A stretch of 37,057 nt of DNA from Nodosilinea sp. LEGE 07298. GTDB lineage: Bacteria; Cyanobacteriota; Cyanobacteriia; Phormidesmidales; Phormidesmidaceae. The first letter of the stretch is position 1; each line of letters begins with the position of its first letter. This document shows, piece after piece, positions 837 to 33,230 of the stretch. The stretch spans positions 1 through 37,057 of the forward strand of contig NZ_JADEXE010000032.1 of NCBI RefSeq assembly GCF_015207265.1, written 5' to 3'. Under the pieces are notes generated by a model, which was not told the DNA's origin, made no database searches, and saw nothing but the letters and a program-made list of their open reading frames with translations. A program made the translations under genes and the position numbers.

Positions 837-3137
837 ATGCCTTTCCCCCCCTCCTCCACACCCCGCGAAACTAACGGCAATGGCAACGGTCATGGCCCAC
901 TCAGGCCCGAGTTTGTGCCTGTGATGGCTCCACCCTCCTTAGTCGAGAAAGGGGATGACATTGACCTCAATCGATTGGTGGGAGTGCTCAAGCGCCGAGC
1001 TGGAGTCTTTTTAGGGGTCGCAGCCCTGTCCTTTGGCGGGTTAACCCTCTGGCACCTGAGCCGTCCCCCGGCCTATAGCGGCAGCGTCAACCTGCTGGTA
1101 GAACCTGTCACTAATGCTCCCCCTGTAGGTCTAGAAGAGGTGGTTGGAGCCCAGGGCAGCAGGGGGGCATCAAGACTCGACTACGACAGCCAAATTCGGG
1201 TGCTGCGTGGCCCAGCGGTAATCGAACCCATTTTGACCGATATTCAGCGCCGTTACCCCAACATTACCTACAACGCGCTGCTCAGCCGCCTGTCGATTAT
1301 TCAGGAAGGGGACTCAAAGGTGCTGCGCGTCTCCTACAACGCTGCTGACCCTGAGGTGGTCTCTTTTGTGCTGACCCAGGTGATCGAAGGGTTTGTCGAC
1401 TACAGCGTGCAAGACCGCCAGGGCGATCTGCGCCGGGGGCTGACGTTTTTAGACGAGCAGCTGCAGGAGAAATGGCGGGAAGTTGAGGCGATTGAGAGCG
1501 ACCTGAGCGAGTTTCAGAAGCGCTACGACATTGTCAACGTCAACGCTACCAGCGAAAGCGTGACCCAGCGCCTCAACCAAATGCTGGCCGACCAGGAGCA
1601 GCTGCGGGTAGAGTTAACAGCCATGGAACCGCTGTATGACAATCTGCGGGACCAGGTGGGCTTTGACCCCGATACGGCTATCCGGGTGGCCAACCTCAAC
1701 GAGTCGCCCACGTACCAGGCGCTGCTGGGCGATTTGCGCGAGATTGAGCAAACGATCGCCGCCGAGTCGGCCCGGTTCCAGACCGACACGCCTATGATCG
1801 AAGCTTTGGCAGACCAGCGCCAGCAGCTGTTGCCCCTGCTAGAAGCCGAAGCCCAGCGGCTGGTAGGAGAAGCTGTGGAAGCCGATACCCTGGGCTACAA
1901 AGGCTCGGTGAGCCAGGGGTTGATGCAGCAGCTGGTGGACACCGCTAACCAGAGGCAGGTGCTGCAAACCCAGGATCAGGCGATTGGTCAGACGGTGCAG
2001 CAGCTACAGGCCGAAATTCAGCGGCTGGCCGATTTGTCGCGATCGTTTCAGCAGATTGACCGCGAGCTGACAGTGGCTGAAAGTAGCCTCAACCAGCTGC
2101 TGGCCAGTCGCCAGGAGCTGCGGCTGCAGATGGCCAGGCAGGCGTCTCCCTGGGAAATTATTTCTCCCCTGAATGAGTCGGGCATTACCAAGACGACCAA
2201 TTTGCCCCGTAAGCTGCTGCTTAGTACGGTGGTGGGGCTCATGATGGGCGGGGTGGCGGCTCTGCTGCGCGATCGCATCGATCAGGCTTTTCACAGTGTT
2301 GACGAGCTGGTTAAGGCGACCCAGTTGCCTAACTTGGCTACCGTACCCAACGCCCCGGCCCTGCAAAAACAGCCTTTGCTGATGGCACCTGACCTGGCCG
2401 CCACTATGGCCGATGTGCTGAGCCAGAGCCAGAGCCCCGATAAGCTCTACACCTCCTTTAGCTTTGCCGAGGCGTTTTACTCCCTCGAAGCTAACCTGCG
2501 TATGCTCAGTTCTGACGTGCCGGTGCAGGTGGTAGCACTCACGTCCTCGGTACCGGGGGAGGGTAAGTCGACCATTTGTGCTCACCTGGCGATCGCGGCA
2601 GCCAATATGGGCCGCCGCGTACTGCTGATCGACGGTGACCTGCGCAAGCCCAGTCAGCACCTGCTCTTCGGCCAGCCCAATCGCCAGGGGCTGAGCGACC
2701 TGATTACCCAGGCCATCGAAGACCCCAACGACTTGGTGCTGACGCTGCCGGGCAACCCCAACCTGCACCTGCTGACCGCTGGGGCACGCCCTCCAGCCCC
2801 CGGTCGGCTGCTGTCTTCGCGAAAAATGCAGCAGATTACTGAGCAGTATCGCCGCCACTATGACCTAATTATTTTTGATACGCCGCCTCTAGCCGGCATG
2901 ATCGACGCTAAGCTTACGGCGGCTCATGCCGATGGGCTGTTGCTGGTGGTACGGCTGCATCGATCAGAGCGATCGGAAATTCAGCGGGTGCTAGCCGATT
3001 TGGGCAACACTGCCCAGGCTCCTCTGCTGGGTCTTGTCGTCAACGGTGTGCCCCAGAGTCGGCAGAGTGGCTACGACTACTACTACGGCTACTATGGTCG
3101 GCCTCAAATGGCGGCTGGGCTAGAAAAAAACGTTTAG
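837..3137 (+). CDS. Polysaccharide co-polymerase with fused BY-kinase (Wzc-like tyrosine autokinase)
   Basis: This 766-residue inner-membrane protein should control polymer length and couple synthesis to export. After a Gly/Asn-rich N-terminus it has TM1 at about 56-74, a long Wzz-type periplasmic region with coiled-coil character (about 80-455), TM2 at about 460-477, then a cytosolic P-loop kinase. Kinase motifs visible: Walker A SSVPGEGKST (570-579), Walker A' RVLLIDGDLRKP with D599 and D601, and Walker B LIIFDTPP with D681. The C-terminus carries a tyrosine cluster (Y746, Y748-750, Y752-753), the expected autophosphorylation tail. Having Wzz and kinase parts in one chain is the proteobacterial/cyanobacterial arrangement. 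ATG 837 gives the full first TM. A small hairpin (812-826) lies just upstream. It follows the OPX gene by 168 bases, and together they form the export pair. Confidence 0.95.
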   Translation: MPFPPSSTPRETNGNGNGHGPLRPEFVPVMAPPSLVEKGDDIDLNRLVGVLKRRAGVFLGVAALSFGGLTLWHLSRPPAYSGSVNLLVEPVTNAPPVGLEEVVGAQGSRGASRLDYDSQIRVLRGPAVIEPILTDIQRRYPNITYNALLSRLSIIQEGDSKVLRVSYNAADPEVVSFVLTQVIEGFVDYSVQDRQGDLRRGLTFLDEQLQEKWREVEAIESDLSEFQKRYDIVNVNATSESVTQRLNQMLADQEQLRVELTAMEPLYDNLRDQVGFDPDTAIRVANLNESPTYQALLGDLREIEQTIAAESARFQTDTPMIEALADQRQQLLPLLEAEAQRLVGEAVEADTLGYKGSVSQGLMQQLVDTANQRQVLQTQDQAIGQTVQQLQAEIQRLADLSRSFQQIDRELTVAESSLNQLLASRQELRLQMARQASPWEIISPLNESGITKTTNLPRKLLLSTVVGLMMGGVAALLRDRIDQAFHSVDELVKATQLPNLATVPNAPALQKQPLLMAPDLAATMADVLSQSQSPDKLYTSFSFAEAFYSLEANLRMLSSDVPVQVVALTSSVPGEGKSTICAHLAIAAANMGRRVLLIDGDLRKPSQHLLFGQPNRQGLSDLITQAIEDPNDLVLTLPGNPNLHLLTAGARPPAPGRLLSSRKMQQITEQYRRHYDLIIFDTPPLAGMIDAKLTAAHADGLLLVVRLHRSERSEIQRVLADLGNTAQAPLLGLVVNGVPQSRQSGYDYYYGYYGRPQMAAGLEKNV

Positions 3138-9290: not shown

Positions 9291-10583
9291 ATGTCTGATA
9301 CCGTCATTCGCGTTGAAAATCTGGGCAAAAAATACATCATTGGCCATCAGCAGCAAGAGCGCTATACCGCCCTGCGAGATGTATTGGCCAACAAGGCGAA
9401 AGGTATTACCCAGCTTTTTAATCCAAAATCCAAAATCCAAAATCCAGCATTTGAGGAGTTTTGGGCCTTAAAAGATGTGTCGTTTGAGGTCAAACAGGGC
9501 GATCGCATCGGCATCATTGGCCGCAATGGCGCAGGCAAATCCACCCTGCTCAAAATCCTCAGCCGCATTACCGAACCCACAGAAGGGCGCATTAGCATCA
9601 AGGGCCGAGTCGCTAGCCTTCTAGAAGTCGGTACAGGGTTCCATCCAGAGCTAACAGGCCGCGAGAATATCTACCTCAACGGAGCCATCCTAGGGATGGG
9701 CAAAGTAGAGATTCGCCGCAAGTTTGATGAAATCGTCGCTTTTGCAGAGGTAGAGAAGTTTTTAGATACGCCGGTTAAGCGCTACAGCAGTGGTATGTAT
9801 GTTCGACTGGCATTTGCTGTAGCCGCTCACCTAGAACCCGAAATTTTGGTGGTAGATGAAGTATTAGCAGTGGGCGATGCCGCATTCCAAAAAAAGTGCT
9901 TAGGCAAAATGGAAGACGTAGCAGAGCGGGAAGGACGCACAGTTCTATTCGTAAGTCACAATATGGCAACAATACAGAATTTGTGCAACCACATTATTTT
10001 TTTAGATCATGGGCAGGTTAATGCGCGAGGAGCACCCAATACCACAATTCAGCTTTATTTAAATGCGGGAGTCACTTCTCAAGAATGGAGCGACTTGTAT
10101 AAAATCAAGCAGCGCAGAGGAGAGGGAAAACTAAGGTTTGTAAGGCTAGAATTGCTAGATTCTCAAGATAGACCAATTAATGCGGCATTGTCTGGGGAAA
10201 AATTAGGAATTAGGTTGTTTTTCTCCAGTTTCTCAGAAAAAACAACTTATAAAAATTGTCGCATAGGCGTTGCTATAACGACTATTTCCGGCACAAATAT
10301 CGTGCTTTCTACTGAGATGATATGCAACGATGAAATCGATATCAATGATCAAGACTTCATAGACTTTTTTATTAAAAAGCTTCCTCTTTCTGAAGGAAAT
10401 TATTCATTGACGCTTTTTGCTGAATCTAATGGAATTATTCAAGATTGGATAACAGAAGGAATTCAATTTTCTGTCGAAGGTGGTGATTTTTACGGTACAG
10501 GGAAGCCTTGTCCAATTGGTTATCAGGGGAAAAGCGTTCTCGTAGATTTTTCGGTAGCCAAAAATTCTTATGAGTATGCATAG
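9291..10583 (+). CDS. ABC transporter ATPase for polysaccharide export, Wzt-like with C-terminal glycan-binding domain
   Basis: A 430-residue ATPase of the O-antigen/teichoic-acid type (Wzt, RfbB, TagH group). Walker A is GRNGAGKST (77-85), the signature is YSSGM (165-169), Walker B is ILVVDE with D189/E190, and the switch histidine is H223. The long N-terminal loop before Walker A is typical of this subfamily. Residues about 265-430 form a Wzt C-terminal-like beta domain, which in characterised members recognises the finished, capped glycan. No Wzm-like permease is encoded anywhere in this window, so the partner must lie elsewhere. Residues 44-53 (NPKSKIQNPA) are encoded by a heptamer repeat. 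Base composition changes from HIP1-bearing, GC-moderate DNA in the ATPase part to AT-rich in the C-terminal part, suggesting recombination inside the gene. Confidence 0.93.
   Translation: MSDTVIRVENLGKKYIIGHQQQERYTALRDVLANKAKGITQLFNPKSKIQNPAFEEFWALKDVSFEVKQGDRIGIIGRNGAGKSTLLKILSRITEPTEGRISIKGRVASLLEVGTGFHPELTGRENIYLNGAILGMGKVEIRRKFDEIVAFAEVEKFLDTPVKRYSSGMYVRLAFAVAAHLEPEILVVDEVLAVGDAAFQKKCLGKMEDVAEREGRTVLFVSHNMATIQNLCNHIIFLDHGQVNARGAPNTTIQLYLNAGVTSQEWSDLYKIKQRRGEGKLRFVRLELLDSQDRPINAALSGEKLGIRLFFSSFSEKTTYKNCRIGVAITTISGTNIVLSTEMICNDEIDINDQDFIDFFIKKLPLSEGNYSLTLFAESNGIIQDWITEGIQFSVEGGDFYGTGKPCPIGYQGKSVLVDFSVAKNSYEYA
9421..9446 (+). repeat. Heptamer short tandem repeat inside the Wzt-like gene
   Basis: ATCCAAA repeats at 9421, 9428 and 9435 with a partial fourth unit to 9446. 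This is the CCAAAAT type of short tandem repeat common in filamentous cyanobacteria, usually between genes. Here three units (21 bases) keep the frame and encode NPKSKIQNPA just before the ATP-binding core. Confidence 0.85.
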
Positions 10584-12077: not shown

Positions 12078-13010
12078 ATGTCTTGTTCTACCCCGGTCGT
12101 CTTTATCATCTTTCGTCGCCCTGATCTTACGGCTCAAGTTTTTGAAGCCATTCGTCAGGCACAACCTAAGAAGTTATTAATAGTAGCTGACGGCCCTCGC
12201 AATGGAGAAGAGACTGCACTATGTCAGCAGGCTAGAGCCATCACAGAAAATATTGATTGGAATTGCGAAGTAATACGAAATTACTCTGAGGTTAATTTGG
12301 GATGTCGTGATCGAGTTTCCACTGGCCTAGCTTGGACTTTTGAAAAAGTCGAAGAGGCAATTATTTTAGAAGACGATTGTTTACCACACCCATCATTTTT
12401 CCACTACTGCGAGGTTCTATTAGAAAAATATAGATTTGATACACGAATCATGCAAATAGGTGGGAATAATTCATTATGCACTCCTATTGACCTCAAGGAT
12501 TCCTATTATTTTTCTGGCCTTGTCCATATCTGGGGTTGGGCCACATGGAAACGCTCTTGGAAACTATTTGATCCCAGTATTAAGAACTGGCCTATCATTA
12601 AAAATGAATATCCTGAGATTTTAGATATTTTTGAAAATCCTAGAAAAATTAAGGAACGAATTAGAACATTTGACAATGTTTTTGAGGGGAAAATAGATGC
12701 TTGGGGTTATTCTTGGTTATTTTGTGTGATTACTCAACATGGTTTATCTATATTGCCTTCTGTAAACTTAGTATCTAACATAGGCTTTAGAGAAGATGCT
12801 GCTCACACGACTAATTCAAATTCACCACGATCCAACCTTCCGAACAGGGAAATAGGCTTTCCTTTAAACCACCCTAACTTTGTAATTCGCAGCAGGTCTG
12901 CCGATCAGAAATATCTAAGGTTAGATAAAGCTAAAAATAGCTTAAAATTTATAAACTTTGTGCAAAACAGTTCGGCATTTAAAGTACTAAAAGATTTCTT
13001 TTCACGTTAA
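12078..13010 (+). CDS. GT-A-like glycosyltransferase, HlpA/GNT-I-like family (copy 1)
   Basis: A 310-residue protein of the family often annotated in cyanobacteria as hemolytic protein HlpA-like or nucleotide-diphospho-sugar transferase. It opens with a GT-A strand (TPVVFIIFRRPD), has LLIVADGPR (33-41), an EDD metal-binding triad in AIILEDDC (94-101), and the characteristic HIWGWATWKRSW block. These match GT-A folds that bind a metal and a nucleotide sugar. A second copy lies at 15480-16418. Over the first 110 residues I count about 76 identities, about 69 percent. The copies flank the radical-SAM/pyruvyltransferase gene. The gene starts three bases after the FkbM stop. The hemolysin label has no support from the sequence; a glycosyltransferase role fits the locus. 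Confidence 0.82.
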   Translation: MSCSTPVVFIIFRRPDLTAQVFEAIRQAQPKKLLIVADGPRNGEETALCQQARAITENIDWNCEVIRNYSEVNLGCRDRVSTGLAWTFEKVEEAIILEDDCLPHPSFFHYCEVLLEKYRFDTRIMQIGGNNSLCTPIDLKDSYYFSGLVHIWGWATWKRSWKLFDPSIKNWPIIKNEYPEILDIFENPRKIKERIRTFDNVFEGKIDAWGYSWLFCVITQHGLSILPSVNLVSNIGFREDAAHTTNSNSPRSNLPNREIGFPLNHPNFVIRSRSADQKYLRLDKAKNSLKFINFVQNSSAFKVLKDFFSR

Positions 13011-13154: not shown

Positions 13155-15461
13155 ATGAGCAATAAAGTGAAAAACTATATAAAAGCTAACTTGGGATCTA
13201 AACAGTTAGGGTTTGCCAAAAAAATACTAAAAGCAATATCGCTGCCTCAACAAGCTTTTGATGAATCTGTTGGAGCATATTTAAACAATTTTTTCCCTTC
13301 AAAGCCTGAAACGCTTAATTTACTCGTTAATGACGTTTGCAACTCTCGTTGTCAGATGTGCTTGATCTGGCAGAATAAAAAAGATAAAGAACTCACTCCT
13401 GATGAACTGTCAGATATTCTGTCTGATGGTCTCTTTGAAAATATAAAATATATAGGAGTTAGTGGAGGAGAGCCAACTCTTCGTTCAGATTTACCAGAAA
13501 TCTATAAGGCAATTTGTTCAAAGAGTCCAAAGATTAAATCAACTGGCGTTATCACCAACGGAATCATTCATGATGTTGTAAAAAAAAGGATTTTAGAATC
13601 AGCAGCAATCTGCCAAGAGCATGGTATAAATTTCAATATCATGATCTCTATAGACGGAATAGAAGAAATTCATGACATTGTACGAGGCCGAAAAGATAAC
13701 TTCGAGTCAGCAGTCTCACTGCTGAAATTTTTCCATGAAGAAACAGATATCCCTACATCCTTCGGATGCACAATTACAACGTCCAATGCTCTTTATGTAG
13801 ATGAGTTACTAGATTATGCAAAAGCTGAAAGACTATATGGTCGTTTCCGTGTGGCGGAGTATATAAATCGACTTTATAATGCTAAACAAACTCAGTTTAT
13901 TCGTTCATTTGACGACAAAACATCTTATCATTTAGGTCTCTTTTTCTTTCGTGCTGAGCATGATTTCGAGACAGCTCCTTCTATTAAAAAAACTTACAAG
14001 AATATTCGTGGAATGCTTGCTGAAAACAAACCTAGGTTTATGGGTTGTCCTTATCAGTCTAAAGCTGTCGTTCTCTCGGCTAAAGGAGAGCTGTTATATT
14101 GCTCACCTAAATCACCTTCATTGGGTAGCACATTAGATAATTCAGCTAAAAAACTTTATTTTTCTAACCTATTTAAAAGAAAAGAAATCATAGAAAAAGA
14201 GTGCTCTAATTGCATTCATGATTATCATGTCCCCTTAACGGCTCGAGAAACTGTAACTTCTTACATTCAAGCAAAGAAAAGAAGAAATAAGTATTCATGT
14301 TTGAACTTGCTGAAATCAGCCTTCAAACTCTCAAGAAAAGTAGAAGTGATTGAAGTCCCAGCTAATCTCTCCAGTGAAAGTGTATTAGTTGTTGGTTGGT
14401 ACGGAACAGAAACTGCTGGAGACAAGGCTATTTTATGGTCAATAATTAATAACCTTAGATCTCGTGAGCATCCACCCCAAAATATTTACTTAAGTAGTTT
14501 ATACCCTTTCATCTCTCAATGGACGTTGAAGGAGATGAGTCTTGATAATATATCAATTGTTGAAACTTACTCAAAAGAATTTGAAGCAACTTGCAATAAA
14601 ACTGATGAAGTCGTAGTTGGCGGCGGTCCACTAATGGATATTGAAGCTCTAGGTCATATTTTGTATGCTTTCATTCAAGCAACTAAGAATAACGCTATTA
14701 CAAGAGTTGAAGGCTGCGGAATTGGCCCGCTCAAAAGCCCTCTTTATATGAGTGTTGTATCTGAAATTTTCATTTTATCAAGTCATATTACTCTTCGGGA
14801 TAAAGCATCGACAGCCCGATCACTCCAAGAACTTTCAGCAGCAAAAGCAACTACTATCCCTGATCCAGCGACTGAATACGTTCGTTTTGTAAAGAACTCA
14901 GGTCTTTTGGAAAAAAGCAGGCCTATTCTTGGTGCTGGAAAAAATATTTCATGCTTTTTGAGAGAATGGTCAGTCGAGTATCGAGGCGATCTGAGTCAAG
15001 CTGAATTTAATGCTGTTAAACTTCAGTTTGAAAAACAGTTAGCTCAACTAGTGCTAAAAATATCTGACAAAAAAAAGCTAAATGTTCATCTACTGCCCAT
15101 GCACACTTTCCATGTTGGCGGAGATGATCGTGTATTCAATAGAAAGTTTGCGAAAAAGATAACTTCCTTGGCTATAGAGAACCAAATACAAATTGATGTA
15201 GCTTTTGCAAGAGGCCCTATATCTCCAATTGAAATTCTTCAAAGCATGTACCACTCACAACTTAGCTTATGTATGAGATTCCATTCAGTGCTTTTTGCCG
15301 AAAACCTTGGAGTACCTTATCTTGCGATTGATTACACCAACGGGGGTAAAATTCGAGCTTTTCTAGAGAGCAAAAATAAGCTTGATAGACTAATTTCTTT
15401 GCAGGACATAGCTTTAGGTATCTGGCAAGACAAGCTTAAATGTATTGAAGAATGTGCTTGA
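13155..15461 (+). CDS. Radical-SAM/Twitch protein fused to polysaccharide pyruvyl transferase
   Basis: A single 768-residue frame with two enzyme modules. Residues about 50-360 are radical SAM: the cluster motif C62xxxC66xxC69 in NDVCNSRCQMCLIW, SGGEPTLR (103-110), STGVITNGI and SIDGIEEIHDIVRGR. A C-X12-G-X4-C motif (C298, G311, C316) and CxxC (C350, C353) fit a Twitch-type single auxiliary iron-sulfur cluster rather than a full SPASM. Residues about 408-735 are a PF04230-type pyruvyl transferase: VLVVGWYGTETAGDKA (410-425), VVGGGPLMD near 489-494, and LCMRFHSVLFAENLGVP with R708 and H710. Known relatives of the second module add pyruvate from PEP as a ketal to sugars. Radical SAM enzymes with Twitch clusters can oxidise or rearrange sugar carbons. 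I infer coupled sugar modification and pyruvylation. The DNA is AT-rich, unlike the flanks of the locus. Start ATG 13155. Confidence 0.9.
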   Translation: MSNKVKNYIKANLGSKQLGFAKKILKAISLPQQAFDESVGAYLNNFFPSKPETLNLLVNDVCNSRCQMCLIWQNKKDKELTPDELSDILSDGLFENIKYIGVSGGEPTLRSDLPEIYKAICSKSPKIKSTGVITNGIIHDVVKKRILESAAICQEHGINFNIMISIDGIEEIHDIVRGRKDNFESAVSLLKFFHEETDIPTSFGCTITTSNALYVDELLDYAKAERLYGRFRVAEYINRLYNAKQTQFIRSFDDKTSYHLGLFFFRAEHDFETAPSIKKTYKNIRGMLAENKPRFMGCPYQSKAVVLSAKGELLYCSPKSPSLGSTLDNSAKKLYFSNLFKRKEIIEKECSNCIHDYHVPLTARETVTSYIQAKKRRNKYSCLNLLKSAFKLSRKVEVIEVPANLSSESVLVVGWYGTETAGDKAILWSIINNLRSREHPPQNIYLSSLYPFISQWTLKEMSLDNISIVETYSKEFEATCNKTDEVVVGGGPLMDIEALGHILYAFIQATKNNAITRVEGCGIGPLKSPLYMSVVSEIFILSSHITLRDKASTARSLQELSAAKATTIPDPATEYVRFVKNSGLLEKSRPILGAGKNISCFLREWSVEYRGDLSQAEFNAVKLQFEKQLAQLVLKISDKKKLNVHLLPMHTFHVGGDDRVFNRKFAKKITSLAIENQIQIDVAFARGPISPIEILQSMYHSQLSLCMRFHSVLFAENLGVPYLAIDYTNGGKIRAFLESKNKLDRLISLQDIALGIWQDKLKCIEECA

Positions 15462-15479: not shown

Positions 15480-16418
15480 ATGCCTTGTCGCACCCCAATC
15501 GTGCTTTTAGTTTTTCGTCGCCCCGCTCTAACTGCACAAGTTTTTAAGGCGATTCGCAATGCTCAACCTACTAAGGTTTTGATAGTTGCGGACGGCCCCC
15601 GCAGCAAAGATGAGATTATTCTCTGCCAAGCAGCTAGAACTGCTACGGAACAAGTGGATTGGGATTGTGAGGTATTTCGAAACTATTCAAAAGAAAATCT
15701 AGGGTGCAGATATCGAGTTTCTAGTGGACTAGACTGGGCTTTTTCGATAGTCGAAGAAGCAATAATTCTTGAAGATGACTGTGTTCCTCATCCAGACTTT
15801 TTTACTTACTGCTCAGAACTGCTTGAGCACTATCGCTACGACCCCCGCATCATGGTTTGTTCCGGCAGCAACCAAGGTAACTTACCCATTAGCGGAGACG
15901 CTAGCTACTCTTTCAGCATCTTTCCCCAAATTTGGGGCTGGGCTACCTGGCGCAGAGCATGGCAAATGAATCAAGCTTCAATGCACTTTATGGAGCAACC
16001 CTATGTTCTTCAAAATCTTGAGTTGAGAGCAGCTTCCATCGGTTTAGATTTTAAACACTTTCTAAATCAGTGGCAACTCATTCAAGCAGGCAAACTCGAC
16101 TCTTGGGCCTACGTTTGGACCGCATCTGTATGGCTCAACTCTGGGCTTTGCATTCGGCCTCGCGTAAATTTGATCGGCAATATTGGGTTTAATATAGATG
16201 CAACACATACCGTTGGCCATGCACCAAACTGGCTAAAAATGCCTACAGAGTCTATATTACCTATTCGCCATCCAGGCTATTTGATCCACGATCTTATTCA
16301 CGACACGTTATTAGCTCAGCGTTTTTCTAAGCCAAAGCCATCTTTTATGTCGAAAGTGAAATTAACCTTAAAAATTTGGATAAAAACCCTTATAAAGCAA
16401 ACTAGCTCTAGCTCTTAA
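15480..16418 (+). CDS. GT-A-like glycosyltransferase, HlpA/GNT-I-like family (copy 2)
   Basis: A 312-residue paralogue of the protein encoded at 12078-13010. Key segments sit at identical positions: FRRP (12-15), LIVADGPR (34-41), LEDDC (97-101). The FPQIWGWATWRRAW block is also shared. The C-terminal halves differ much more, including the region after the W-rich block that should contact the acceptor, so the two enzymes probably use related donors but different acceptors. It follows the radical-SAM/pyruvyltransferase gene by 18 bases, so the pair flanks that gene. Its codon use looks less AT-rich than that of copy 1 (for example the CTATCGCTACGACCCCCGC stretch), which argues for independent arrival rather than a recent local duplication. 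Confidence 0.82.
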   Translation: MPCRTPIVLLVFRRPALTAQVFKAIRNAQPTKVLIVADGPRSKDEIILCQAARTATEQVDWDCEVFRNYSKENLGCRYRVSSGLDWAFSIVEEAIILEDDCVPHPDFFTYCSELLEHYRYDPRIMVCSGSNQGNLPISGDASYSFSIFPQIWGWATWRRAWQMNQASMHFMEQPYVLQNLELRAASIGLDFKHFLNQWQLIQAGKLDSWAYVWTASVWLNSGLCIRPRVNLIGNIGFNIDATHTVGHAPNWLKMPTESILPIRHPGYLIHDLIHDTLLAQRFSKPKPSFMSKVKLTLKIWIKTLIKQTSSSS

Positions 16419-16488: not shown

Positions 16489-17148
16489 ATGAGAATAATT
16501 TCTAATCTAAGATCAGGTCTTAACCTCAATAATAATATAGACAGTGCTTTACGAGAACTCAAGATTCCGCGGCAATTCAGAAAAGATCAAGTAATTTTTA
16601 TACATATTCCCAAATGTGCCGGTTCAGCATTTTTAGATTCTTACTTAGGCTATCAGTTAGGACATATAAGTGCGTCAGACTATTACAAGTTAGACCCATC
16701 TCTTTTTTTAACTTCATTTGTCTTTTCTTTTGTCAGACATCCGGTTAGTCGCTTTGTTTCTGCCTATAATTTTCTTCAGAAAACCACTCTCTGGAGCTAC
16801 GTACCTGAAATAAGAGAAAAACTCAATCTGTATGGTTCATCAGTAGATCAGGTAGCTAAGACTATCTCAAAAACCTCTGAGTTGCTAGCCTTTCCTTGGT
16901 TTAAACCTCAGCACACTTTTTTGGAAATAGGCGGTAAGATAGCTGTTAATAGAGTTTTCAAAACCGAAACTTTTGCAGAAGATATTAAAATATTGCAGCG
17001 ATCAATCAAAGCTCAGCTTCGCTCTCAATCAGAGGTAAACCGTTCTTCTCTAAATAATCTAGATTTTAAGAAAGTTTTGAATGCCGATAGTGTAAAAAAT
17101 CTAGAGTCAGTCTATGAGCGTGATTTCACTCTTTTTGGATATTACTGA
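16489..17148 (+). CDS. Sulfotransferase family 2 protein (PAPS-dependent)
   Basis: A 219-residue protein with the two PAPS-binding elements of carbohydrate sulfotransferases. The 5'-phosphosulfate loop is FIHIPKCAGSAF (37-48) and the 3'-phosphate segment is FVRHPVSRFVSAYNFL (81-96), with R83 and S87 as the expected contacts. The spacing between them is short, as in bacterial members. The reaction would transfer sulfate from PAPS to a sugar hydroxyl, giving an acidic sulfated polymer; sulfated exopolysaccharides are characteristic of cyanobacteria. It lies 70 bases after glycosyltransferase copy 2. Start ATG 16489 follows no strong ribosome site. No kinase or sulfurylase for PAPS supply is present in the window; those are housekeeping functions. 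Confidence 0.88.
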   Translation: MRIISNLRSGLNLNNNIDSALRELKIPRQFRKDQVIFIHIPKCAGSAFLDSYLGYQLGHISASDYYKLDPSLFLTSFVFSFVRHPVSRFVSAYNFLQKTTLWSYVPEIREKLNLYGSSVDQVAKTISKTSELLAFPWFKPQHTFLEIGGKIAVNRVFKTETFAEDIKILQRSIKAQLRSQSEVNRSSLNNLDFKKVLNADSVKNLESVYERDFTLFGYY

Positions 17149-18128: not shown

Positions 18129-19361
18129 GTGAAAGTCTTACATATCAATCAGTCAGATACCTTAGGCGGAGCCGCGATCGCTGGGTATCGGCTGCATAGT
18201 GCTCTACTTAAACAGGGCTTAGACTCTAAGTTGTTCGTAGGGCACAAAAAAACTGATGACCAACGGGTTGCCCAAGTGCCTCGTCATGAGTGGTTTGAGA
18301 GCCAGCTTCAGAGATTTACCCATAGAGCAGGCTTTAACTATGTTAACCATATCAGTAGCTTCAATATCCCTAAGCACCCCTTCTTTGCCGCAGCAGATAT
18401 CCTTAACTTTCACAATCTGCACAACAGCTACTTCAGCTATCTAGCTATTCCACGCCTTACGACACAAAAACCTGCTGTGTTTACGCTTCACGATATGTGG
18501 AGCTTTACTGGTCACTGCGCTTATAGCTACGATTGCAGTAAATGGCAAACGGGCTGTGGCCAGTGCCCCTACCCCAAAACTTACCCTGGCATACGTCACG
18601 ACAGCACTCACTGGGTATGGAAGCTAAAAGACTGGGTATACAATCGCTCTAACCTAACGATAGTCACCCCTAGTCGCTGGTTAACAGCGCAAGCTAAAGC
18701 AAGCCTTTTAGGCCGTTTCCCAGTTCACCATATACCCAACGGGGTTGATCCTGATGTCTATCAACCCCTTGATCGCGAACTTTGTCGCACAGCCCTAGGC
18801 ATACCTGCAGAGAAAAGAGTCTTGCTGTTTAGCGCCGTTGACCTTACCGATCTTCGGAAGGGTGGCGATTTGCTGGTTAAGGCATTGAGCCAGTTGCCTG
18901 CCACCCTAAAGCAAGATTGCCTCTTGCTAACCCTAGGTAATCCATTTAAGCAGTTGGCGACTTCGTTAGATATTCCCTTAATGAACTTAGGCTACGTCAG
19001 CAGCGATCGCCTCAAGTCTGTAGCTTACTCTGCGGCGGACCTCTCCCTTTTTCCTACTCGCGCCGACAACCTGCCCCTCGTGCTACAGGAGAGTATGTCC
19101 TGCGGTACTCCTATGGTATCTTTCGACATTGGCGGTGTGCCAGACTTAGTACGTCCTGGAATCACTGGTTATTTGGCTCAACCTGAGGATATAGATGGTT
19201 TCGGCAAAGGTATTGCAGATCTGCTAAGCGACAACGAAAAGTGCCAGGCTATGAGAAGAGACTGCCGCCGCATTACCCTCGAAGAATATACTCTCGACCT
19301 GCAAGCCAAACGATATCAACATCTTTACCAACAAGTGTTGGATAAGATGGTTACCGAATAG
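18129..19361 (+). CDS. Glycosyltransferase family 4
   Basis: A 410-residue GT-B enzyme starting at GTG 18129 (the overlapping ATG at 18127 is followed at once by a stop). It opens with KVLHINQSDTLGGAAIAGYRLHSAL, the classic nucleotide-fold start with a GGA loop. ILNFHNLHNSYFSY and VFTLHDMWSFTGHCAYSYDC follow, typical of the WcaC/colanic-type subgroup. The donor domain has ADNLPLVLQESMSCGTPMVSFDIGG, where the usual EX7E pair appears as D...E. A cysteine group (CAYSYDCSKWQTGCGQC) is a known feature of this subgroup. HIP1 sites reappear here (18174 and 19003), so composition returns toward the host for this gene. Confidence 0.9.
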   Translation: MKVLHINQSDTLGGAAIAGYRLHSALLKQGLDSKLFVGHKKTDDQRVAQVPRHEWFESQLQRFTHRAGFNYVNHISSFNIPKHPFFAAADILNFHNLHNSYFSYLAIPRLTTQKPAVFTLHDMWSFTGHCAYSYDCSKWQTGCGQCPYPKTYPGIRHDSTHWVWKLKDWVYNRSNLTIVTPSRWLTAQAKASLLGRFPVHHIPNGVDPDVYQPLDRELCRTALGIPAEKRVLLFSAVDLTDLRKGGDLLVKALSQLPATLKQDCLLLTLGNPFKQLATSLDIPLMNLGYVSSDRLKSVAYSAADLSLFPTRADNLPLVLQESMSCGTPMVSFDIGGVPDLVRPGITGYLAQPEDIDGFGKGIADLLSDNEKCQAMRRDCRRITLEEYTLDLQAKRYQHLYQQVLDKMVTE

Positions 19362-20408: not shown

Positions 20409-20951
20409 ATGTCAAAAATTCACTTTCTTGGAGGAGAATTTTTACGCTACTGCTCGAATCACCTTATCAATAAAATTCCGTTCCATTCCATTAGACTATT
20501 TTTTTACCGTCATTTTTTAGGCCTTGAAATCGGCAATAATAGCTATATATTCATGGAAGTTTGTTTCGACTCTCGACGAAATTTCTGCATGGGAGACAAC
20601 TCTGTTATTAATCAAAAATGTTGTATTGATAATCGTGGAAGAATTGAAATAGGCAAAAATGTTTCTATATCCCCTGAAGTTTGTATTATTACAGCAGATC
20701 ATGACTTGCAAAATGCCCGTTTTGTGGGAAGAATTCGTCCTGTTTTTATAGATGATTATGTTTTTATCGGTATGCGTGCATTGATACTGCCTGGAGTTAA
20801 GATAGGCGAGGGATCTGTTGTTGCAGCAGGTGCAGTTGTTACAAAGGACGTTCTTCCTTACACTATCGTTGCGGGAGTTCCAGCGAAGCTGATAAGTATG
20901 AGAAAAAAAGATCTCAACTATACCATCAATTACAAAAGATTTTTCTCATAG
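20409..20951 (+). CDS. Hexapeptide-repeat O-acetyltransferase (WcaF/NodL-like)
   Basis: A 180-residue left-handed beta-helix acyltransferase. Hexapeptide periods run from about 38 to 150 (LEIGNNSYI, FCMGDNSVI, IEIGKNVSI, VFIGMRALI, VKIGEGSVVAAGAVVT). The catalytic histidine is H98 in TADHDL, and the C-terminal VAGVPAKLI signature closes the helix. Family members move an acetyl group from acetyl-CoA to sugar hydroxyls, and an acetylated polymer is the natural inference. The length agrees with the family. The gene is AT-rich and tightly packed between a GT2 and a methyltransferase gene. Confidence 0.9.
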   Translation: MSKIHFLGGEFLRYCSNHLINKIPFHSIRLFFYRHFLGLEIGNNSYIFMEVCFDSRRNFCMGDNSVINQKCCIDNRGRIEIGKNVSISPEVCIITADHDLQNARFVGRIRPVFIDDYVFIGMRALILPGVKIGEGSVVAAGAVVTKDVLPYTIVAGVPAKLISMRKKDLNYTINYKRFFS

Positions 20952-25243: not shown

Positions 25244-26265
25244 TGAAGATTCTCATTTCGTCTCAATATTTCTATCCCAGCCTAGGCGGCAGCGAGACTA
25301 ACGCCGAAATATTAGCTCGTGAGTTTCTTAAGCAGGGGCATGAGATCAAGCTCACCACCCAAACCCCTGGAACCCCCAATGATCTCCATGGCAAGCCGTT
25401 TCCCTTTGAGGTGATTCGTCAGCCCCAAGTCCGTCAGCTTATTGCTCTCACGCGCTGGTGCAATGTGTGCCTGCAAAATGGTGTCATTCTCAGACAGCTC
25501 TGGGCCTTGTGGCTAACCCAAACTCCCTGGGTAATTCGTCACCAAACTTGGGTTCGTCAGCCTCATAAAAATGCCACATTGCTCATTCAGTTGAAACTGC
25601 TTGCCGTTAAATTAGCGACCTCTATCTCTATCAGTAAAGCAATTGCGCAACACCTCCATCATCCCTCTACCATCATTCCTAACCCCTATAGAGACGATCA
25701 ATTCCGCCTTACACCCGAGGTGCAGCGCGAAAAAGACTTGGTTTATGTAGGTCGCCTTGTCTCCGATAAGGGTGTAGATTTGCTTCTCCAAGCTGTTGCT
25801 GACCTGAAGGCATTTGATCTTATTCCTAAGCTTACTGTCATCGGCAGTGGTAAAGAAGAGCATGCCCTGCGACATCAGTCCATTGACCTTGGCATTGATG
25901 CCCAAGTGACGTTTGTAGGGTCTAAGACGGGCGACGAACTAGTGACTTTGCTTAATCAACATCATATTTTAGTCATCCCCTCTCGCTGGTATGAACCCTT
26001 TGGCGTTGTAGCATTGGAGGGCATTGCCTGTGGCTGTGTGGTCGTAGGCTCCTCAGAGGGCGGGCTTAAAGATGCCATTGGCGACTGTGGTATTACGTTT
26101 CCCAATGGTGATGAGGTCGCTTTGACTGATAACCTGCGTCGGCTGCTAACTCAACCAGACCTACTAGCCCGCTATCGTACTCATGCATCTAGCCACTTGG
26201 CAAAACATCGGCAGGCGGTTGTAGCTAAGGCTTATCTCCAAGTTTTACAGAGCGCTTGCCAATGA
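25243..26265 (+). CDS. Glycosyltransferase family 4
   Basis: A 340-residue GT-B enzyme of the short kind. The N-terminus KILISSQYFYPSLGGSETNAEILA is typical of GT4. The donor domain shows LVYVGRLVSDKGVDLLLQA and the EX7E motif in YEPFGVVALEGIACGCVVVGSSEGGL, followed by the conserved final helix of the fold. The length is slightly less than usual because the acceptor domain is compact. It is joined to the preceding methyltransferase by a one-base overlap and to the polymerase gene by an ATGA overlap, indicating one polycistronic unit. Specificity is unknown. Confidence 0.92.
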   Translation: MKILISSQYFYPSLGGSETNAEILAREFLKQGHEIKLTTQTPGTPNDLHGKPFPFEVIRQPQVRQLIALTRWCNVCLQNGVILRQLWALWLTQTPWVIRHQTWVRQPHKNATLLIQLKLLAVKLATSISISKAIAQHLHHPSTIIPNPYRDDQFRLTPEVQREKDLVYVGRLVSDKGVDLLLQAVADLKAFDLIPKLTVIGSGKEEHALRHQSIDLGIDAQVTFVGSKTGDELVTLLNQHHILVIPSRWYEPFGVVALEGIACGCVVVGSSEGGLKDAIGDCGITFPNGDEVALTDNLRRLLTQPDLLARYRTHASSHLAKHRQAVVAKAYLQVLQSACQ

Positions 26266-27680
26266 GTAATCTTCTCTTAGCCTTATTTATAGTTGGTCTC
26301 GTTGTGCTGCTTGCCGCCCAAGACTGGCGACGGTCTGTAAAGGCCGTTTTGATTTTAGTCGTAATTGAGGGTGCTTTACGGAAGTGGGTACTACCCCAAG
26401 CGAGTCAGTTTATTTATTTCCTCAAGGATTTCGTTTTAATTGGTGCTTACCTGCGATATTTTTTGTTGTCCCCAATACAAACTCGCCTGTTTACCCAGAA
26501 GGCTCTTATTCTTGTACTAGTGGGGTGTATGGCTGTTTGGGGAGGAGTGCAAGCTTTTAATCCAAGCCTGGGTTCTCCTATTATTGGTCTATTTGGCTTC
26601 AAAAGTTATTTTCTTTACATACCGCTTATTTGGCTGGTGTCTCAGATATTTGGTACTGAAGAAGAGCTATATCGATTTATTCGCAACTACCTGCTGCTGT
26701 TAATTCCGGTAGGCATTTTAGCGATCGCTCAATTCTTTAGCCCCCCGACCAGCCCGCTCAATGTTTATGCCTGGGGCGAAGACGGCCCAGCAGTGGTAAG
26801 TTCTGGCCTAGGTACAGTTAGAGTAACGGGCACTTTTTCTTATTTAGCGGGCTATGCAACTTATTTATTGACCTGTCTCTGCCTGCTGTTGCCCGTAATC
26901 TCCCGACCTCAGCCTCGCCTCTGGCAAATTTTAACCCTCATTGAGGGAGGACTGATCGCAGTGACCGCGTTCATGACTGGGTCTCGTGGCCTTGTCCTGG
27001 GTTCTATTTTGCTGATGTCTGGCTATGGGCTACTGCTAGCCTTAACCAGTTTCTCTAGTTTTATCAATAGCGCGCGCAAGCTGGTTTTGCCGGGGATAGT
27101 GAGTTTCTTAGCCGTTTCACAGGGAGGTCGGCTGGCTTTTGAGTCATTTTGGACCCGGGTAGAAAGGGCTAATGACAGTATCGTTGCTCGAGTCTTAAAC
27201 CCTTTCACTCAGCCTTTTAGAAACTTTGACCTTAAAGGTTTAGACGGCTATGGCTTGGGCGCTACGTTTCAGGCTAACGGTATTATTCGCCGAGTGTTTC
27301 GGCTGCCTCCAGGAGAAACTATTCCAGTCTATTTTGAGAACGAAATGGGTCGTGTTGGCTTGGAGGTTGGGCCTATAGGCTTCTTTCTTTGGTATGGCTT
27401 GCGTCTGGTGTTGCTTTTTACCCTCTTTAAAGTTTTTCTTCAGCTTACCCATCCATTCTTGCGGCAGCTTGCTTTGAGTGTCTTTGTCTATCAGGGTGTG
27501 ACTTTTATTGCTCAAATGGTCTATAACCATACGGCCAATGTCTATCACTGGTTTTTCTATGGTTTTATCTTTTTGCTTCCCTACTTAGAGCGGATAGACC
27601 AATGGCAGCGAGCCCAACCACCTAATCTTCTCTATGGTCAACCAACGCATCTCTCTGGTACACCCTACCAGCAACCCTAA
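26262..27680 (+). CDS. Polytopic membrane protein, O-antigen polymerase/ligase-like (Wzy/WaaL family)
   Basis: A 472-residue integral membrane protein with about twelve hydrophobic segments, starting at ATG 26262, which overlaps the upstream stop (ATGA). A TTG two codons earlier is less likely. A long loop between the late helices carries the FQANGIIRRVFRLPPGETIPVYFENEMGRVGLEVG stretch in two parts, and polymerases and ligases of this family use such large periplasmic loops for lipid-linked glycan. The final helices contain YNHTANVYHWFFYG. The call is by topology and context, because Wzy/WaaL sequences are poorly conserved. As the only polymerase-like gene here, it would join repeat units handed over by a flippase, which is not encoded in the window. 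Confidence 0.8.
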   Translation: MSNLLLALFIVGLVVLLAAQDWRRSVKAVLILVVIEGALRKWVLPQASQFIYFLKDFVLIGAYLRYFLLSPIQTRLFTQKALILVLVGCMAVWGGVQAFNPSLGSPIIGLFGFKSYFLYIPLIWLVSQIFGTEEELYRFIRNYLLLLIPVGILAIAQFFSPPTSPLNVYAWGEDGPAVVSSGLGTVRVTGTFSYLAGYATYLLTCLCLLLPVISRPQPRLWQILTLIEGGLIAVTAFMTGSRGLVLGSILLMSGYGLLLALTSFSSFINSARKLVLPGIVSFLAVSQGGRLAFESFWTRVERANDSIVARVLNPFTQPFRNFDLKGLDGYGLGATFQANGIIRRVFRLPPGETIPVYFENEMGRVGLEVGPIGFFLWYGLRLVLLFTLFKVFLQLTHPFLRQLALSVFVYQGVTFIAQMVYNHTANVYHWFFYGFIFLLPYLERIDQWQRAQPPNLLYGQPTHLSGTPYQQP

Positions 27681-31718: not shown

Positions 31719-33230
31719 TTACTTGATGTCGTAGCCAAACAAGTTGGGGTCTACGTCGCCCAGATTTAAATCACTGAGGCCATACTCTGCCCAGCGCCCA
31801 TCCACCAACTTCGCCGTTTCCGGGTCAGGGGTAAGCTCTTCGCTCCAGGGCCGATCGGTTTCGGGATAGACCTTAGTGGTGGCATCAATGCCCATGCGGC
31901 TGCCCAACCCCGGTCTCTCTGTGGCAAAGTCAAGCTTATCAAACGGGTTGTTGGGCAGAATGAACACGTCGCGCACGGGGTCGACCTTGGAGGTGACAGC
32001 CCACATCACCTGGCGGGGGTCGCGAATGTTGATCGCCTTGTCGACCACAATCACAAACTTGGTGTAGCTGAACTGGGGCAGAGCCGACCAAAAGGCGAGG
32101 GCCGCCCGCTTAGCCTGCCCCGGATACGACTTTTCAATCGAGAGCACAGCGGCTTTGTAGCTCAGCCCTTCCATCGGCAAAAAGAAGTCCTGAATTTCGG
32201 GTACTTGCTGGCGCAGGATGGGGTTGTAGATGCGGTTAAGAGCGATCGCCATCATGGCGTCTTCCTTGGGCGGGCGACCGCTAAAGGTGGTCATATAGAT
32301 CGGGTTTTTGCGGTGGGTCATACAGTGGAACCGCAGCAGGGGCGCGGCTTCGTTGACGCCGCCGTAATAGCCAATGTGGTCGCCAGCGGGGCCATCGACA
32401 GCGGTTTCGCCGGGGGTAATGGTGCCTTCCAGCACAATTTCAGACTCAGCGGGCACCTCTAGATCCACCGTTTTGCACTTGGCCAGGTTCAGCCCCTTGC
32501 CGGCATAGAGTCCAGCAAACAGCCACTCTGATAGGTCAATAGGTAATGGGGTAGCAGCGGCAAGAATGACTAGGGGGTGTACCCCGATCGCGATCGCCAC
32601 CTCTAGCTTTTTACCCATTTCAGCCGCTTTGCGCAGGTGACGGCTACAGCCCCGCACCGACAGCCACTGTACCGTCGCGGTATTCTTCGACTGCTGCTGT
32701 AGCCGGTAGACCCCTACATTGGGAATATTGGTTTCCGGGTCTTTAGTAATCATCAGCCCCAGGGTAATCACCTTATCGGCGTCGCCAGGGTAAACCCGCA
32801 GCAGGGGAACTTGGTTGAGATCAACCGCATCATCCTTTAGCACCACCTGCTGGCAGGGGGGCAGCAGGTCACGCATGGGCTTGGCCTTGACCACATCAAA
32901 CAGCGCTTTGCCCAGATCAATGGCTTGGGAAAACTGCTTAGGGGGGCGGGGCTGATAGAGCAGCGCCAACTTTTCGCCCAGGGTTTCTAGCTCCGCCGGG
33001 TGCTCCATACCCATGGCCCAGCACACTCGCTCTACGGTGCCCAGCACGTTGATAGCCAGGGGCATTGTTGCCCCCTGAACATTCTCAAACAGCAGCGCGG
33101 GGCCACCGCCGAGCAGCAGGCGATTGGCAATTTCAGCAATTTCTAGATCGGGGCTAACGGGGGCTGCAATGCGACGCAGCTGCCCACGCTGCTCTAGCAG
33201 GGTCAAAAATTGCTGTAGGTCTTTTGCCAT
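31719..33230 (-). CDS. ubiD: UbiD-family decarboxylase (4-hydroxy-3-polyprenylbenzoate carboxy-lyase type)
   Basis: A 503-residue protein of full family length. Conserved blocks are NVGVYRLQ (171-178), where R176 is the expected prenyl-FMN contact, SVRGCSRHLRK (191-201), and GETAVDGPAGDHIGYYGGVNE (274-294), the hallmark UbiD segment that includes the metal-phosphate region and acidic residues near the active site. FSGRPPKEDAMM follows at 316-327. In cyanobacteria the homologue is placed in plastoquinone biosynthesis, decarboxylating the prenylated benzoate using prenylated FMN made by UbiX. The gene is on the - strand, converging on the polysaccharide block, and is not part of it. Start ATG at 33230. 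It is a housekeeping gene and marks the return to core chromosome. Confidence 0.95.
   Translation of the reverse strand: MAKDLQQFLTLLEQRGQLRRIAAPVSPDLEIAEIANRLLLGGGPALLFENVQGATMPLAINVLGTVERVCWAMGMEHPAELETLGEKLALLYQPRPPKQFSQAIDLGKALFDVVKAKPMRDLLPPCQQVVLKDDAVDLNQVPLLRVYPGDADKVITLGLMITKDPETNIPNVGVYRLQQQSKNTATVQWLSVRGCSRHLRKAAEMGKKLEVAIAIGVHPLVILAAATPLPIDLSEWLFAGLYAGKGLNLAKCKTVDLEVPAESEIVLEGTITPGETAVDGPAGDHIGYYGGVNEAAPLLRFHCMTHRKNPIYMTTFSGRPPKEDAMMAIALNRIYNPILRQQVPEIQDFFLPMEGLSYKAAVLSIEKSYPGQAKRAALAFWSALPQFSYTKFVIVVDKAINIRDPRQVMWAVTSKVDPVRDVFILPNNPFDKLDFATERPGLGSRMGIDATTKVYPETDRPWSEELTPDPETAKLVDGRWAEYGLSDLNLGDVDPNLFGYDIK

Follow-up and report, generated by a model that had tools for sequence, protein, structure and literature searches.

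A 37,057-nucleotide stretch of Nodosilinea sp. LEGE 07298 DNA (hereafter the window) encodes an enzyme in which a radical-SAM/Twitch domain and a polysaccharide pyruvyltransferase domain are fused in a single protein. The fusion enzyme is real, widespread and, in the literature that we searched, apparently unstudied. On balance, it is probably a bifunctional enzyme that tailors glycans during the biosynthesis of a surface polysaccharide. Its most informative feature, absent from an earlier note made on this DNA from the sequence alone, is a GT4 glycosyltransferase gene lying directly downstream of the fusion gene in most relatives.

Architecture of the fusion protein

The open reading frame runs from ATG to stop with no internal stops and encodes 768 amino acids (Table 1). 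The earlier note had described a 768-codon frame with three radical-SAM motifs, and these indeed lie at C62-C66-C69 (CxxxCxxC), residues 104-107 (GGEP) and residues 165-168 (SIDG). The domain search that it proposed placed both halves above their Pfam cut-offs: PF04055 (Radical_SAM) matches residues 60-196 (E 8.5e-18; 65.5 bits, cut-off 29.5), and PF04230 (PS_pyruv_trans) matches residues 422-728 (E 2.1e-15; 57.8 bits, cut-off 25.3). The latter match is complete, as had been claimed, covering profile positions 3-279 of 280. Between them lie Twitch-type cysteines, arranged as C298-X12-G311-X4-C316 (C298-X17-C316) followed by C350-X2-C353.

Among the matches listed, no NCBIfam model exceeded its cut-off for either half, so the fusion represents an unnamed subfamily. 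We found no curated family for the fused protein. The open-access literature yielded no paper pairing radical SAM with polysaccharide pyruvyltransferase (subscription journals lie mostly outside this coverage); we found no characterised example of the domain pair, and the earlier note was aware of none.

Table 1. Features of the fusion gene and its neighbours in the window
Feature	Coordinates	Strand	Basis
rSAM-Twitch/polysaccharide pyruvyltransferase fusion gene, 768 aa	13155..15461	+	ORF, Pfam, conserved architecture
Radical-SAM core, aa 60-196	13332..13742	+	PF04055 match
CxxxCxxC (C62, C66, C69), predicted radical-SAM [4Fe-4S] ligands	13338..13361	+	Conserved among homologues
Twitch-type auxiliary cluster site C298, C316, C350, C353, then H355-D356-Y357	14046..14225	+	Conservation
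Helical linker joining both catalytic domains, aa 363-405	14241..14369	+	Model, pLDDT ~90
PF04230 pyruvyltransferase domain, aa 407-745	14373..15389	+	Pfam, conservation, CsaB alignment
Wzt-type ABC exporter ATPase with C-terminal glycan-recognition domain Wzt_C	9291..10583	+	Wzt near fusion in 29/71 loci
GNT-I-like putative glycosyltransferase, upstream flank of fusion, without Pfam match	12078..13010	+	Neighbour clustering
Second GNT-I-like putative glycosyltransferase, directly 3' of fusion, without Pfam match	15480..16418	+	Neighbour clustering
Sulfotransferase (Sulfotransfer_2), glycan-decorating	16489..17148	+	
WcaC-like GT4 glycosyltransferase, counterpart of relatives' next gene	18129..19361	+	Neighbour clustering, tree
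Hexapeptide acyltransferase, putative O-acetylation	20409..20951	+	

An AlphaFold2 model of the full-length protein, built with 57 sequences, reached a pLDDT of 91.8 and a pTM of 0.92. The high pTM for a two-domain model points to a fixed orientation of the domains, which fits coupling between them without proving it. In Foldseek searches of the PDB, the first half matched the radical-SAM enzymes SkfB, BlsE, SuiB, anSME, MoaA, viperin and EpeE, and the second half matched UDP-GlcNAc 2-epimerases; the structural neighbours of WbbZ are likewise UDP-GlcNAc 2-epimerases (PMC10629545). Query-normalised TM-scores were 0.33 or lower among the 50 Foldseek matches listed, so no listed PDB match spans both domains.

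Distribution of the fusion

The first full-length homologues came from four cyanobacterial genomes, with identities of 65, 55, 51 and 34%. A wider scan covered a single genome for each species and turned up 78 loci; its seeds were two short peptides, which makes the sample non-random and the number of relatives a lower bound. We ran domain profiles, made from a five-sequence alignment, on all frames in all loci. This search for other proteins carrying both domains, which the earlier note had recommended, found them in a single frame in at least 63 loci besides the window (61 distinct loci after two duplicated genomes were dropped). In five further loci (L105 and L109-L112), the two domains were encoded by adjacent genes, with the radical-SAM gene first. 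We rejected the reading of L020 as a two-piece gene, its frame being a single one of 789 amino acids.

The one-frame architecture common to 63 relatives indicates that the fusion is neither a product of chance nor an assembly or sequencing join. The earlier note had itself raised such a join, and also the prospect that homologues are always separate genes in unrelated surroundings; the relatives are mostly fused and share a related context.

By phylum, fusion carriers belong to Cyanobacteria, Planctomycetota, Bacteroidota, Firmicutes, Chloroflexota and several proteobacterial groups. Named carriers comprise Planctomycetaceae, Akkermansiaceae, Bacteroidota, Paenibacillus, Clostridium, Chloroflexi and Cyanobacteria as well as Zeta-, Gamma-, Beta- and Alphaproteobacteria, Desulfobacterales and others; cultured carriers include Reichenbachiella agariperforans, Clostridium magnum, Paenibacillus and Nostoc. 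The named relatives nearest to the window's fusion are cyanobacterial. Within sampled genomes the family is rare: full-length members occur in the window and in 3 others among 386 genomes of the phylum, the family sample held one more full-length fusion match, and 1 out of 119 genomes in a Bacteroidota order sample had the fusion, that genome being the centre of the sample. A phage or plasmid origin was rejected, since plasmids gave no good match and viral contigs gave only one distant radical-SAM match. At the DNA level, the Yersinia homologue had no counterpart in E. coli.

Across 49 loci, the distances computed for one fused domain agreed with those for the other (r = 0.89), and none of 2000 permutations gave a value as high.

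Conservation of the pyruvyltransferase half

Six residues of this half (D423, R548, R603, R708, H710 and K732) were invariant in all 60 full-length homologues, in agreement with alignment A2. In an alignment that took in CsaB from two Paenibacillus genomes and from the window's genome, R548, R603, R708, H710 and K732 fell opposite CsaB R148, R207, R306, H308 and K328, for which a role in PEP binding or catalysis was assigned by mutation or docking (PMC10435577). We infer that the six residues form the PEP/acceptor site. The earlier note had allowed that the PF04230 domain might lack the family active site, but the five CsaB-type residues are present throughout; a pseudogene or broken domain was rejected because the PEP-site residues are invariant.

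Motifs given for WbbZ and its relatives are N-x-GD, R-x3-S/T and H (PMC10629545). The fusion keeps R-x3-S/T, H and the GD of the first motif, but all 60 homologues have T-x-G-D, in which T420 replaces the Asn that WbbZ, CsaB and others carry, and Gly and Asp are kept. N-x-G-D comes from one survey and is not the Pfam criterion for the family; judged by sequence, PF04230 membership stands despite T-x-G-D, and membership of a characterised subgroup does not follow. For the CsaB equivalog TIGR03609, the fusion scored 70.9 bits against a cut-off of 213.1 and is thus not a member.

Compared with CsaB, WbbZ and Pvg1p, the fusion has the same complete PF04230 domain, the same PEP-site Arg/Arg/His/Lys plus loop Arg, and the same GD, R-x3-S and MRxH motifs. 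It differs from them in having T420 for the Asn of N-x-G-D and P492 for the Ser of GGGS, and in being joined to a radical-SAM domain. T420 in all members marks this half as a distinct, divergent subfamily with a complete PEP site, which could have an altered acceptor or product. C521, also in this half, is present in 56 out of 60 homologues. The window's genome holds two further PF04230 genes, one of them a clear CsaB.

Features of the radical-SAM/Twitch half

C62 and C66 were found in every homologue aligning there and C69 in 58 out of 59; this CxxxCxxC motif and the PF04055 match above the gathering score place the half in the radical-SAM superfamily. The four cysteines of the C-X12-G-X4-C plus CxxC set, which the earlier note had assigned to a Twitch cluster, were invariant (60/60), and H355-D356-Y357 was kept in about 58-59 out of 60. 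The half has this one auxiliary site and no other strictly conserved Cys, the pattern of a Twitch enzyme. BtrN-like Twitch enzymes have a single four-Cys auxiliary site, C-X17-C...C-X2-C, beside a CxxxCxxC core. The fusion resembles BtrN, HygY and NeoN in this arrangement, and BtrN was absent from the sequence and fold matches listed for it. The four conserved Cys predict a fully cysteine-ligated cluster; such clusters are the proposed electron acceptors in anSME, SuiB and PqqE (PMC8326336).

By both profile and fold, the best solved match for the radical-SAM core was SkfB (6efn), followed by BlsE. Identity to BlsE was about 15%, too low for a safe transfer of function, and the BlsE model matched 55 out of 57 members weakly. 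BlsE, a cytosylglucuronate decarboxylase, acts on a sugar acid and in this is like the role that we propose for the fusion, but it is unfused and belongs to a nucleoside antibiotic pathway. The NF033640 model (N_Twi_rSAM) weakly matched the radical core in 56 out of 57 members, and the window's protein, at 48.5 bits against a cut-off of 170, is not a member. The SkfB match, which links the core to SPASM/Twitch peptide maturases, raised a role as a peptide (RiPP) maturase; we set it aside as less likely because, unlike these enzymes, the fusion has no peptide-binding RRE domain by Pfam, no evident precursor peptide and a polysaccharide context. Viperin-like defence was also rejected, as pVip models matched the radical core only, and weakly, and the context is again polysaccharide. 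Because radical-SAM similarity is low and at least as near to peptide maturases, it is the gene context only that points to a sugar substrate.

The polysaccharide cluster and its glycosyltransferase module

The cluster around the fusion encodes SLBB/Wza-like and Wzz/tyrosine-kinase-like proteins, a Wzt ABC ATPase with Wzt_C, many GT2/GT4 glycosyltransferases, methyltransferases (one of FkbM type), a sulfotransferase and a hexapeptide acyltransferase. GC content was 35-51% over ~10-31 kb (mostly below 45%) versus 57-62% in the outer flanks, which suggests that this surface-polysaccharide cluster in the 7.25-Mb genome is probably an acquired island. No Wzm was recognisable within the window, and the rest of the genome carries ten ABC2_membrane genes. 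The window also encodes a multi-membrane-span protein without a Pfam match (26256-27680), O-antigen polymerase- or ligase-like by eye, and a UbiD-type decarboxylase (31719-33230, minus strand) just beyond the low-GC island.

Neighbour clustering placed a WcaC-like GT4 gene near the fusion in 59 out of 71 loci. It was the immediate next gene in 50 out of 69 loci and occupied position +2 in 8 out of 57, with at most 1 at any other position. Many fusion-GT4 pairs overlap by 4 bp. Given this adjacency and overlap, the real unit is a module made up of the fusion and the glycosyltransferase. In the window, three genes separate the fusion from the WcaC-like GT4, which is phylogenetically nearest to the GT4s adjoining the nearest fusions. 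GT4 distances correlated with those of either fused domain at r 0.57-0.63. The fusions form two main groups, one mostly beside Wzt/Wzm (including the window's) and the other mostly beside Wzx; thus, the module is not tied to one route of export.

Other neighbours recur in subsets of loci. The GNT-I-like proteins flanking the fusion in the window are related to each other and have relatives in 13 fusion loci, the window included; the relative in L047 matched GNT-I below the cut-off only. In six loci (L053, at 2188-3006, L062, L087, L088, L094 and L099), the gene immediately before the fusion encodes a PhyH-type dioxygenase. Genes for GDP-mannose dehydratase and/or GDP-fucose synthase-like proteins, recognised by eye among the cluster sequences, occur near the fusion in 15 loci (for example, L087, L089, L091, L101 and L108); without a baseline, this hints at a glycan containing fucose or related 6-deoxyhexoses.

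Proposed function and alternatives

In the mechanism that we propose, the PF04230 domain would take pyruvate from PEP and attach it, in the form of a cyclic ketal, to a sugar diol of a growing, probably lipid-linked glycan. The radical-SAM/Twitch domain would generate a 5'-deoxyadenosyl radical and abstract hydrogen on the same glycan, and the WcaC-like GT4 downstream would probably make or extend the modified residue. For the radical step, the likeliest chemistry may be of the BtrN kind, in which a sugar alcohol would lose two electrons to the fully Cys-ligated auxiliary cluster, an assignment that we offer tentatively. The analysis establishes the domains, the conservation of both metal sites and of the PEP site, the rigid fused fold of the model and the recurring neighbour. 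Both catalytic activities, with the glycan as their common substrate, are what we infer, and oxidation, like the sequence of the steps, is a guess; the pyruvyltransferase half is well supported, the radical chemistry more tentative.

Inversion of a carbinol centre, by which the radical half would set the geometry of the diol for pyruvylation, is an unlikely alternative to oxidation. Twitch radical-SAM carbohydrate epimerases exist in NeoN and HygY (PMC10991966), and an epimerase would need no partner enzyme, in keeping with the lack of a constant redox partner gene near the fusion. The radical-SAM epimerases described in PMC8326336 and PMC10991966 draw hydrogen from a Cys donor, and this Cys shows strict conservation across the PoyD set. 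The best candidate in the fusion, barrel residue C205, is present in 50 out of 60 homologues, but the other 10 carry A, S, T or Y there, which led us to reject it as a general donor; apart from C205, the radical half has no conserved Cys beyond the cluster ligands, and no non-ligand Cys is invariant. The fusion therefore differs from HygY and NeoN both in lacking an invariant Cys donor and in having a fused partner domain, and the missing donor argues against a Cys-donor epimerase and favours oxidation.

Two relatives bear on how the halves depend on each other. L092 (2433-4397; Gammaproteobacteria) and L107 (9119-11017; Saccharicrinis aurantiacus) have the pyruvyltransferase domain with its PEP-site residues kept, and an N-terminal region without CxxxCxxC or C-x2-C. 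This region is likely a degenerate radical-SAM domain, although its remaining similarity to the radical half is weak by hhalign (L107, E 4.6e-4; L092, E 0.069) and the N-terminal part of the L107 model, mostly below pLDDT 50, is unreliable. The two branch at different places in the tree of pyruvyltransferase domains from fusions, in which some nodes are weakly supported, a pattern consistent with two independent losses of the radical site. By sequence, L092 and L107 show that the two halves are separable; their missing radical-site cysteines and intact PEP site suggest that pyruvylation is probably independent of the radical step. The earlier note had, in one of its two readings, put the radical step first, and these intact pyruvyltransferase sites argue against that order as an obligatory one. 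They would also suit an enzyme whose sole output is pyruvylation, with the radical-SAM domain as a structural or regulatory platform such as an iron-sulfur redox sensor, as would their separate branching and the finding that the L107 genome has no intact family member elsewhere at E 1e-20. We regard this as quite improbable, because CxxxCxxC, GGEP and the four Twitch Cys, needless for a scaffold, are kept in essentially all other members.

That the radical half acts after transfer, on the pyruvyl ketal or the pyruvylated residue, seems to us very unlikely. The fixed inter-domain geometry of the model, the degenerate relatives, which suggest pyruvylation without a prior radical step, and the divergence of the pyruvyltransferase subfamily (invariant T420 and the frequent C521) all speak for it, but we are aware of no other case in which a radical-SAM enzyme acts on a ketal. 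Most improbable of all would be a composite pathway in which the ketal is built, an adjacent hydrogen is abstracted and the ketal fragments into a keto sugar and a lactyl-type (1-carboxyethyl) ether, a fragmentation known, to our knowledge, for no enzyme. Lactyl ether sugars occur in cyanobacterial polysaccharides, and such a pathway, if true, could be a route to them.

Our preferred reading remains the bifunctional glycan-tailoring enzyme. Radical-SAM chemistry on exported polysaccharides has been little explored, and the conserved fusion with its fixed glycosyltransferase partner across phyla implies a surface sugar modification that is apparently undescribed so far.
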